A model generated the notes under the pieces. The model searched no databases. It had not been told where the DNA came from and was given only the letters and a program-made list of their open reading frames with translations. Below are positions 29,394 to 62,683 of a DNA stretch of 64,000 bases, in pieces (positions within the stretch are counted from its first letter, which is position 1; every line of letters starts with the position of its first letter). A program made the translations under genes and the position numbers. Origin of the DNA: Chloroflexota bacterium (GTDB lineage: Bacteria > Chloroflexota > UBA11872 > VXOZ01); assembly GCA_958295775.1 (NCBI GenBank), contig CATQHC010000008.1, forward strand, positions 1 through 64,000, written 5' to 3'.

Positions 29394-29432
29394 GAAACAG
29401 TCTCAATGGCGTATGTGTTTTGCGCCACTAGG

Positions 29433-29525
29433 GCCGCTAGGGGAGCCACAAGGCTGAGAGCAACTGCTTGCACGCAGGACAACCCTTGGAACCTGAACTG
29501 GATCATCCCAGCGGAGGGAAGCGGC
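29433..29525 (+). promoter_or_regulatory. TPP (thiamine pyrophosphate) riboswitch
   Basis: The conserved THI-box blocks are present: AGGGGAGCC, CTGAGA, then CCTTGGAACCTGAACTGGAT and a closing GGAGGGAA. P1 pairs GCCGCT (29433-29438) with AGCGGC (29520-29525). The 3' P1 arm (29515-29524) can instead pair with 29550-29560 in the downstream terminator, with one bulge, so TPP binding should release that segment and let the terminator form. It controls the thiG-thiE-thiS-thiO genes. Confidence 0.95.
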
Positions 29526-29547
29526 AGAATTTGAATACTCCGCTGCG

Positions 29548-39510: not shown

Positions 39511-39836
39511 GGATGCCTCCCTCAACACAAGCTAAACCAAGCCCTCAGTTTAGCAAAATTACCGTACCCCGGCATCACCGGCGTGACGCACCATTGCTCA
39601 TGGTACCCTAAGCCCGTGCGACGGACAAACCGCGGGAGAATCGGGAATTATAAGAAACAGACTTGACTGCGGATTGCCTGCTTGTTAGGATGGTCATTGC
39701 TACAGCTCAAATAGTCTAGGCTTGGGTCTTCCAAGAGACGCTAAGGGACATTGGTTTGCCATGTCTCCTTGCGGCCCGGTCTAGGCATTGGGCTGTAGCA
39801 AGACCAAACCCTTTAGCGTGCTGCGAGGAGGCACCC
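39511..39836. other. purA upstream region and IS left end
   Basis: The first 130 bases are the purA leader and promoter region, without a clear promoter match. From 39643 the sequence belongs to the insertion element. Confidence 0.6.
39643..39670 (+). repeat. IS left terminal inverted repeat
   Basis: GGGAATTATAAGA-AACA-GACTTGACTGC, the 28-base left end, adjacent to the target duplication at 39635-39642. Confidence 0.9.
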
Positions 39837-39992
39837 ATGTCTTTTGCTGATCGTCTAATGTCGTTCTTCGTGTTTCTTCTTCTCACGGTGATTACGTTCG
39901 GTACCTACCCGATCTACTTCTACATCACCACCAAGCGAGAGGAGATCGCCTTGCTGAGACAGATAAGCGAAAAGTTAGACCGCATCAGGTGA
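39837..39992 (+). CDS. Small membrane protein, IS passenger
   Basis: A 51-residue protein, MSFADRLMSFFVFLLLTVIT then FGTYPIYFYITT and the helical tail REEIALLRQISEKLDRIR. GAGGAGG is just before ATG 39837. It has one or two membrane helices and a charged coiled-coil-like tail. No function is recognised. It lies inside the insertion element and points toward the transposase gene, so it is a passenger rather than a transposition gene. Confidence 0.7.
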   Translation: MSFADRLMSFFVFLLLTVITFGTYPIYFYITTKREEIALLRQISEKLDRIR

Positions 39993-40031
39993 TTAAGCCT
40001 CTGGTAAAATAGAGTCAATACAAAAGCAAAC

Positions 40032-40060
40032 CCCCGCCAGTGTAGTCAGCACTGGCGGGG
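40032..40060 (-). terminator. Hairpin inside the insertion element
   Basis: CCCCGCCAGTG-TAGTCAG-CACTGGCGGGG, an 11-base perfect stem. On the minus strand it is followed by GTTTGCTTTTG, so it may terminate transcripts coming from the transposase gene. Confidence 0.6.
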
Positions 40061-40089
40061 CAAGTCTCCCGAAGGAGTTGTATCGCGAT

Positions 40090-40311
40090 ATGGACACTAT
40101 AAACGGTTTCTCCATCTTCGTCAACATATTCCAGTCTACAGTATCCGCCTTGCTGGGAGCGGCTATCTATGCGGCGTTCCCGAAAGCGAAACGTATCTTT
40201 AGGCGGCGCGCCCCAGTGAAGGTGGGTTTGCCGTCGTCTCATCTTGCCGATAACACAACTTGGGTGAGAATCAACTCATGGGAAGACCTGCGCAATATGG
40301 CAAGACGGTGA
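40090..40311 (+). CDS. Small hydrophobic-segment protein, IS passenger
   Basis: 73 residues: MDTINGFSIFVNIFQSTVSA and LLGAAIYAAFPKAKRIFRRR, then a polar tail (TTWVRINSWEDLRNMARR). GAAGGAG lies 12 bases before ATG 40090; a TTG at 40078 sits directly on that site and is unlikely. The single membrane-like helix is followed by a basic cluster. It ends 3 bases before the transposase stop on the other strand. Function unknown. Confidence 0.6.
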   Translation: MDTINGFSIFVNIFQSTVSALLGAAIYAAFPKAKRIFRRRAPVKVGLPSSHLADNTTWVRINSWEDLRNMARR

Positions 40312-40314
40312 TAG

Positions 40315-41178
40315 CTAAGCCACTCCGCAAGCCCGCACCATGAAGTCCGCGAACGGTGTTTCCGACTTCCGCGTGTTGTACTTGTAGCTCGCCTCGTCAA
40401 TGTAGCGGTCTGCCCAATCCAGCGTGTAGTGGTGGTGCTGGCCGGAGATCGCCCGCTTCACCAACGCCCAAAAGCCCTCGATGGTATTCGTGTGGATGCC
40501 GCCGTCGCGCACGTACTCTTTCGAGTGGTTGATGCGCTCGTGATAAATCCAGTCGCGGGCTTCGTTGTAGCCTGGGTATTGGTCGGTAATGAGCATGGCG
40601 CGGGGATCGATGTTGCGGCGCAAGAAGTGATTGATGAGCTTGGTGGTAACACGCGGCGCGGAGATTGCCTTGACCTTGCCACCGCGCTCGACTGCGCCAA
40701 TGATGGGAGCCTTCTTGCTCTCGCGGCGTTGCCCTGGGGTTTTCGGCCCGCGTGGCTTGCCGCCAATGTAGGTTTCGTCCGCTTCAACGATACCGCGTAG
40801 GAACGCGCCGTCCTCTTGCATGGCTTTACGGATGCGCATCGCCATGTACCACGCCGTAGGCTGTGTGAGGTCTAAGTCACGGGCAAGCTGGCAGCTTGAT
40901 ACTGACTTCTTCGCGTTCAACAGGATGGCGATAGCCGCGAACCACTTAGGTAGAGGAATCTTGGTGCCCTGGAAAATTGTGCCAGACGTGACCTTGAATG
41001 CAGACAGGCAATTGTGGCAATTCCAGCGGCCTACGTTCTCGTTGTTCTTGATGCGGCGCGCCACGTCTTCGCTCTGGCAGTAGGGGCAGTAGGGTTTGCC
41101 TTGCCACTTGACTTGCTCTAGTAGGGATATGCAGGAATCCTGGGTACCGAACTGCTGGACGATGCTGATTACGTTCAT
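40315..41178 (-). CDS. IS1595-family (ISXO2-like) transposase
   Basis: From ATG 41178 (AGGAGGT upstream) about 287 residues. The N-terminal zinc ribbon has CPYC and CHNC pairs (WQGKPYCPYCQSEDV, RWNCHNCLSAF). The DDE-type core shows EADETYIGGKPRG (first Asp), ITDQYPGYNEARD (second Asp) and HTNTIEGFWALVKRAI, the family's third acidic region. The frame has 16 extra upstream codons with no ribosome site. The gene fits between the terminal repeats and has no frameshift, so the element may still be active. Confidence 0.95.
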   Translation of the reverse strand: MNVISIVQQFGTQDSCISLLEQVKWQGKPYCPYCQSEDVARRIKNNENVGRWNCHNCLSAFKVTSGTIFQGTKIPLPKWFAAIAILLNAKKSVSSCQLARDLDLTQPTAWYMAMRIRKAMQEDGAFLRGIVEADETYIGGKPRGPKTPGQRRESKKAPIIGAVERGGKVKAISAPRVTTKLINHFLRRNIDPRAMLITDQYPGYNEARDWIYHERINHSKEYVRDGGIHTNTIEGFWALVKRAISGQHHHYTLDWADRYIDEASYKYNTRKSETPFADFMVRACGVA

Positions 41179-41218
41179 GACTTCACCTCCTATAAGTATT
41201 GTACCAAACCCCCTACAG

Positions 41219-41246
41219 GCAGTCAAGTCCTAATCTTATAATTCCC
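41219..41246 (-). repeat. IS right terminal inverted repeat
   Basis: Reads GGGAATTATAAGA-TTAG-GACTTGACTGC on the minus strand, matching the left end. GGAGAATC at 41247-41254 is the target duplication. Confidence 0.9.
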
Positions 41247-41287
41247 GGAGAATCGCACGACGCTTTGCAGAAGACATCGAGTGACTA

Positions 41288-62608: not shown

Positions 62609-62683
62609 TGGAGGCGACGAGCGGAATCGAACCGCTGTATAAGGGTTTTGCAGACCCTCGCCTTACCACTTGGCTACGTCGCC
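62609..62683 (-). tRNA. tRNA-Cys (GCA anticodon), CCA encoded
   Basis: On the minus strand the acceptor GGCGACG (62683 down) pairs with CGTCGCC (62619 down). The anticodon loop reads CTGCAAA with anticodon GCA. The T arm has GGTTCGATTCC. The discriminator is U, an identity element of tRNA-Cys, and CCA is encoded at 62611-62609. It is the tRNA charged by CysS, whose gene is about 11 kb away. Confidence 0.95.

Follow-up and report, generated by a model that had tools for sequence, protein, structure and literature searches.

Small insertion elements are usually seen as a transposase and its ends. In IS10, IS50 and IS200, RNA structure limits the translation of the transposase. In the leader of the phage MS2 maturation gene, ribosomes can reach their site while the RNA is still nascent, and the site is closed once a distal pairing forms, and other cis-acting translational leaders, among them riboswitches, RNA thermometers and ribosomal-protein leaders, set an internal anti-Shine-Dalgarno strand against the Shine-Dalgarno (SD) sequence, with a competing local hairpin.

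The window analysed here, a stretch of 64,000 nucleotides from a Chloroflexota bacterium, contains a complete IS1595-family element, which shares with its family the zinc ribbon, the DDE_Tnp_IS1595 domain, the terminal inverted repeats and the 8-bp duplications. Although its transposon part is that of an ordinary IS1595 member, the element adds a structured RNA leader and a small exported or membrane cargo, whereas in close IS1595 relatives outside the genus the cargo is more often a DNA methyltransferase. The leader resembles the cis-acting leaders named above in its internal anti-SD and competing hairpin, but differs in that two of its pairings, x1:Y and x2:SD, cross, in having no recognised ligand site and in being transposon-borne. 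With the MS2 leader it shares the proposed logic, while sequence and structure are unrelated and the kinetics are here inferred. Unlike the RNA structures of IS10, IS50 and IS200, which control the transposase, the window leader would control the cargo; its transposase has a predicted promoter of its own and an unmasked ribosome site. Elsewhere in the window there are a TPP riboswitch (29429-29536, plus strand) and a tRNA gene (62612-62683, minus strand).

Searches against the 4227 families of Rfam 15 gave no match to the leader at E values up to 1-2 over the leader loci, and a search at relaxed thresholds returned tRNAs and chance matches only. Neither this RNA nor any leader in an IS1595 element was found described in the literature searched, which included few subscription journals. 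Relative to Rfam 15 the leader is an uncatalogued RNA; Transposase-resistance, a candidate RNA motif named for its transposase link and tabulated without an accession in PMC2864571, enters this comparison by name alone and not by alignment.

The IS1595 element and its relatives

The element proper spans 1604 bp, and its parts other than leader and cargo are as follows.

39635-39642, no strand: left 8-bp target duplication, GGAGAATC
39643-39671, plus strand: left terminal inverted repeat region, GGGAATTATAAG...CTTGACTGC
40318-41178, minus strand: IS1595-family transposase, 287 aa (Pfam, NCBIfam; pN/pS 0.06)
41198-41226, minus strand: promoter predicted for the transposase within the right end, TTGACT, 17-nt spacer, TACAAT (from sequence)
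41218-41246, minus strand: right terminal inverted repeat
41247-41254, no strand: right 8-bp target duplication, GGAGAATC

The original prediction of an intact IS1595-type element with perfect 8-bp duplications was accurate: the exact ends are 39643 and 41246, with GGAGAATC on both sides. The terminal inverted repeat of 29 nt is 86% complementary (39642-39670 with 41219-41247), and both it and the duplications agree with the IS1595 family. The ISXO2-like DDE transposase with an N-terminal zinc ribbon that characterises the family is likewise present, with matches to DDE_Tnp_IS1595 (5e-33) and Zn_ribbon_IS1595 (5e-8) in Pfam and to transpos_IS1595 (1e-53) in NCBIfam.

The search for further copies proposed at the outset was fruitful in the 3.4-Mb genome that contains the window. 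Copy C2 has no mismatch over the 1604 bp and is flanked by GCATGTTC, and copy C6 matches at 92% and is flanked by AGGAAGTC; both matches are well beyond chance. A related element, B (2406 bp), is present in two identical copies in the same genome, and each of the three copies of the window element (A) and the two of B has its own 8-bp repeat. With the element removed and its flanks joined, the sequence aligns over its full length, at 75-78% identity, with three relatives (G004, G001 and G003), in which the two flanking genes have no insertion between them. The proposed empty site could be found as an absence of the insertion, but the intergenic bases are too diverged to show an exact single GGAGAATC. 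The identical second copy, the clean duplications, the intact transposase and the absence at this site in three relatives bear out the recent insertion that had been proposed, and the element was recently active.

Relative to A, the transposase is 81% identical in B, 72% in the element G004C25 and 37% in G004C5. All four have the same order of promoter, leader, SD, ORF and convergent transposase. Many more distant relatives have a DNA methyltransferase-like protein of ~545 aa, named from its sequence, adjoining or overlapping the transposase, or have no passenger; this protein is also seen in IS1595 elements of other phyla (loci L074, L080, L082, L107, L108 and others). Two complete IS1595-family elements with target duplications contain tRNA genes: tRNA-Ser(GCT) at L064:4905-4979 within the element L064:1210-5596 (G001:C17), and tRNA-Asn(GTT) at L068:842-917 within L068:649-3233 (G005:C123).

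The leader RNA and its pairings

The conserved part of these elements is, judging from the sequences compared, the structured leader 5' of ORF1, which the original prediction had overlooked, rather than the passengers. Its parts in the window are as follows.

39663-39691, plus strand: predicted promoter, -35 TTGACT (39663-39668), 17-nt spacer, extended -10 TGTTAGGAT (39683-39691; from sequence)
39697-39836, plus strand: whole structured leader, ~140 nt (fold z, covariation)
39697-39710, plus strand: P1 5' strand, TTGCTACAGCTCAA
39714-39728, plus strand: P2 5' strand
39738-39756, plus strand: x1, partner of linker Y (x1'); the 5' half can instead join x2 as hairpin P4
39765-39773, plus strand: x2, internal anti-SD, CTCCTTGCG
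39773-39786, plus strand: P2 3' strand
39788-39801, plus strand: P1 3' strand, TTGGGCTGTAGCAA
39802-39819, plus strand: linker Y (x1'), complementary to x1
39822-39832, plus strand: x2' or SD, TGCGAGGAGGC, complementary to x2

The predicted promoter shares its spacing with B, G004C25, G004C77 and many others, and the predicted transcript start, ~39697, would be the 5' base of P1. The letters of the leader are conserved in P1, x2 (consensus CYCCTTGYG) and the SD. Conservation of the outer P1 in sequence (GCYACAG/CTGTRGC) may reflect a protein partner.

The leader folds far better than shuffled sequence (z = -3.8). In an alignment of 26 sequences, 90.3% of the cells of P1 and P2 are paired, against 30-42% when the strands are slid; two-sided changes occur in 27 of 28 pairs, and covariation is 0.686 vs 0.07-0.11. 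Covariation reaches 0.723 in 44 rows and 0.647 in 44 loci outside model building, and over the three alignments 88-91% of cells are paired, against 30-49% in slid controls; these alignments were fitted to the structure and hence lean toward P1 and P2. Two antisense matches of the palindromic domain (L257:1547 and L296:1544) were removed by hand but are included in the pair counts of the 44 rows, which otherwise comprise 42 sequences.

The pairings x1:Y and x2:SD lie outside every covariance model. Across 38 leaders, the x1:Y duplex formed by a leader's own strands averages -17.6 kcal/mol, against -10.2 for swapped strands, a difference equalled in 0 of 20000 permutations, and in 32 held-out leaders the values are -17.3 and -11.2 kcal/mol (0 of 20000). 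For x2:SD, own strands give -20.6 and swapped ones -17.8 kcal/mol (0 of 20000; held out, 1 of 20000). These permutation counts are not exact probabilities because related leaders were treated as independent. The pairing test omits five held-out leaders whose x2 or SD motif is changed, and three without a recognisable x2 (G002C27, which is L258; L341; and the upstream tandem leader L296:1129) were excluded from the x1 and x2 tests. In x1:Y the partners are, for example, ACGCTAAGGG:CCTTTAGCGT in A1, CACTGTAG:CTACAGTG in G004C5, CAGTCGGACG:CGTCCGACTG in G007C11 and CAGCGGGATG:CATCCCGCTG in G020C146. The alternative hairpin P4, judged by eye and from single folds, is GGGACAT/ATGTCTCC in A1 and GGGCGC/GCGCCC in Caldilineaceae.

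The copies A1 and A3 have diverged by 2.9% across the leader, against 10.1% across the transposase, and at the two positions where their SD differs the pairing is preserved through GU. The leader has the conserved, covarying secondary structure expected of a cis-regulatory leader, and covariation of x2:SD places the SD, its expression platform, within that structure. Taken together, the alignments and duplex comparisons strongly support P1, P2, x1:Y and x2:SD.

Cargo, genomic settings and distribution

The ribosome site of the first cargo gene, ORF1, is part of the leader itself. A second small cassette at 40002-40090, with an extended -10, a perfect hairpin, an SD-masking mini-hairpin and the short ORF2, follows ORF1; its layout is repeated with unrelated sequences in B (L010) and G004C25 (L034:1840-1930).

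39837-39992, plus strand: ORF1, 51 aa, one hydrophobic segment, DUF4234-like (Pfam 26.9 bits, cut-off 25.3)
40002-40010, plus strand: predicted second promoter, extended -10 TGGTAAAAT (from sequence; counterparts in B and G004C25)
40032-40060, no strand: perfect 11-bp hairpin 5' of ORF2 (counterparts in B and G004C25)
40066-40077: small SD-masking hairpin CTCCCGAAGGAG, between the 11-bp hairpin and ORF2
40090-40311, plus strand: ORF2, 73 aa, possible membrane-associated peptide, no family

The second promoter corresponds to TGTTAGAAT in B and TGATATAAT in G004C25, and the hairpin at 40032-40060 is a possible terminator for the minus-strand transposase transcript. The SD-like GGAG closest to ORF2 is 12 nt 5' of its ATG.

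Both small ORFs point toward the transposase, as had been described, and the description of two membrane passengers holds for one of them. Between A1 and A3, the membrane peptide ORF1 has seven synonymous changes and one non-synonymous change, and its pN/pS of 0.04 shows it to be a genuine protein constrained by purifying selection; ORF2, with a pN/pS of 0.36 against 0.06 for the transposase, is less clearly real and only plausible as a membrane passenger. The idea that the passengers define or maintain the element found no support in the comparison: B, despite its similar ends and 81% identical transposase, carries unrelated ones, namely a protein of 274 aa that has a signal-like start and the motif HELFH, and a different second ORF, and others have methyltransferases or none. 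Loss of passengers and ends in relatives had been named as evidence to the contrary; relatives without the passengers exist, but they retain the same kind of ends.

In G004C25 the cargo is a lipoprotein-like protein and in G004C5 another membrane protein, and homologous leaders precede exported proteins of 180-300 aa. Most genes after leaders encode membrane or exported proteins, and in the held-out set, among the 22 downstream ORFs with 40 aa or more, 18 have a strongly hydrophobic segment. Domain searches of the passengers gave weak matches only (DUF4234, DUF5067 below its cut-off, DUF4352 and YccF), and PADLOC returned nothing informative on them. Chromosomal copies of the leader precede, for example, proteins with tRNA_anti-like, DUF4352 or YccF-type domains, and the leader L358:5089-5226 (G007:C11) lies in a prophage-like region with a Terminase_6C terminase and an N6 DNA methylase. 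No obvious start codon follows the SD in L318, L322, L399 and L405. An ORF of ~29-39 codons (ITARxxLLFSSPCPxxDNLKPK) is conserved 3' of the leader in many Caldilineaceae loci (L376, L377, L378, L379, L385, L382 and L391).

In the first set, 18 of 42 leaders have an IS1595 transposase, or a remnant of one, no more than about 3 kb away; among the held-out leaders, 18 of 44 have one within 4 kb. Such a transposase is therefore near ~42% of the leaders examined, and more than half have none nearby; as a rough estimate, a random site in the genus genomes would be within 3 kb of one ~1% of the time, a figure based on 1-7 transposase matches per ~3.3-Mb genus genome, while Caldilineaceae genomes may contain more. 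The elements that are complete and have both duplications and a leader comprise A (three copies), B (two), G004C5 (2562 bp), G004C25 (duplication TGATGGCA, read by eye), L319 (4562 bp), L323 (2975 bp) and L321 (2666 bp) and, from the same end search, L381, L390, L392, L393, L394 and L409. The leaders of A1 and G004C5 are 79% identical over 90 bases, against 37% for their transposases, which suggests that the leader and its cargo are exchanged between elements as a unit.

Homologues were sought by BLAST, by pattern search and then by covariance models built from 5 (R1), 10 (R2) and 26 (R3) sequences. Covariance models were used instead of a single DNA pattern because, in 400 Chloroflexota genomes, the pattern gave mostly chance matches outside the genus. 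A MAFFT alignment with element B was poor, and B was excluded until the model found it. R1 and R2 matched every genome of the genus searched, as well as Caldilineaceae, a Dehalococcoidia bin and others. In a sample of 400 Chloroflexota genomes, R3 found the leader in 13 of the 41 that belong to the window's class and in none of the 359 outside that class; in the order of G402 (Caldilineaceae) it was found in 20 of 46 genomes, all of them among the first 21 listed and with up to 13 copies each, whereas the remaining 25 had none. Well over 100 matches have E <= 1e-4; a few of these come from the palindromic domain being matched in antisense. In viral contigs, nothing was found with two DNA patterns based on the anti-SD/SD pair. 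The hosts probably live in sponges, to judge from the names of sister MAGs and from the phyla involved (Poribacteria, Entotheonella and similar bins). Several Caldilineaceae genomes have leaders in pairs ~385-396 nt apart (G404:C95 350-854, G437:C379 1747-2254, G442:C11 77273-77780 and G440:C189 1612-2141); the pair in G404 has no clear start codon after the SD.

A proposed translational switch

The reading preferred here, with a probability of about two in three (0.68), is that the leader acts as a switch controlling the translation of exported or membrane cargo and is moved by IS1595 elements. The promoter at the left end would drive the cargo through the ~140-nt leader, which would fold as P1-P2 around a loop bearing x1 and x2. 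P4 and the combination of x1:Y with x2:SD are alternatives because they share strands. In the ON state, the local hairpin P4 would occupy x2 and leave the ribosome site free; in the OFF state, Y would capture x1, and the freed x2 would cover the ribosome site. Since x1:Y and x2:SD cross each other and P1/P2, it may be that not all of these pairings form at once. For 35 of the 39 leaders compared, x1:Y with x2:SD is favoured over local folds by more than 10 kcal/mol, in a crude comparison that ignores pseudoknot costs. If the OFF state is favoured once the tail is made, translation would need either the nascent transcript or something acting in trans to hold the local fold; a ligand, protein or condition could thus keep P1-P2-P4 in place. 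Promoter, start site, switching and trigger are what we infer at this stage. The leader and passenger would together form a regulated cassette that IS1595 elements carry and apparently exchange, and that is also seen at chromosomal and prophage-like loci.

A simpler account, which we regard as unlikely though worth serious attention, is a constitutive leader, in which stable 5' structure lowers and insulates the translation of a passenger, giving cheap cargo without regulated switching. The strongly favoured appearance of the closed state fits it, as does the lack, in the leader alignments, of the conserved unpaired pocket typical of small-molecule riboswitches. Masking, however, needs x2:SD alone, and the long covarying x1:Y with the overlapping P4 resembles the parts of a rearrangement. 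A type I toxin-antitoxin or addiction module, in which a small hydrophobic toxin with a structured mRNA helps to retain the element, comes close to the role in maintenance first suggested for the passengers but is improbable. In its favour, ORF1 is a membrane peptide of 51 aa that evolves under purifying selection, and masking of the SD resembles toxin mRNAs in general, but in other elements the same leader precedes the 274-aa HELFH protein, a lipoprotein-like protein of 183 aa and a secreted protein of 260 aa, which do not seem toxin-like, and no antisense RNA gene was identified.

It is more improbable still that the conserved fold acts in DNA, as an attC-like or transposase-binding structure. 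The leader does lie close to the element end in A, B, G004C5 and G004C25, yet it is 500-2300 bp from the end in L319, L323, L321 and others, and many copies are outside any recognised element. One partner of its pairing is a Shine-Dalgarno sequence, and among mispairs GU far exceeds AC (114:36 and 116:20), a pattern that suggests RNA with the sense of the passenger strand. Within the preferred reading of a translational switch, a bolder version is tentative and has odds well short of even: that the leader represents a new, lineage-restricted class of two-state RNA switch, a plug-in expression module of IS1595 elements for exported cargo, which these elements have spread between distantly related Chloroflexota inhabiting the same sponges.

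The IS1595 elements assembled here carry a sizeable and strongly covarying RNA control element with exchangeable cargo. Its more than 100 copies in two Chloroflexota lineages are natural variants for the study of translation control by a crossing anti-SD and linker, and they raise the question of the signal on which mobile exported proteins are expressed in uncultured bacteria that are probably associated with sponges.
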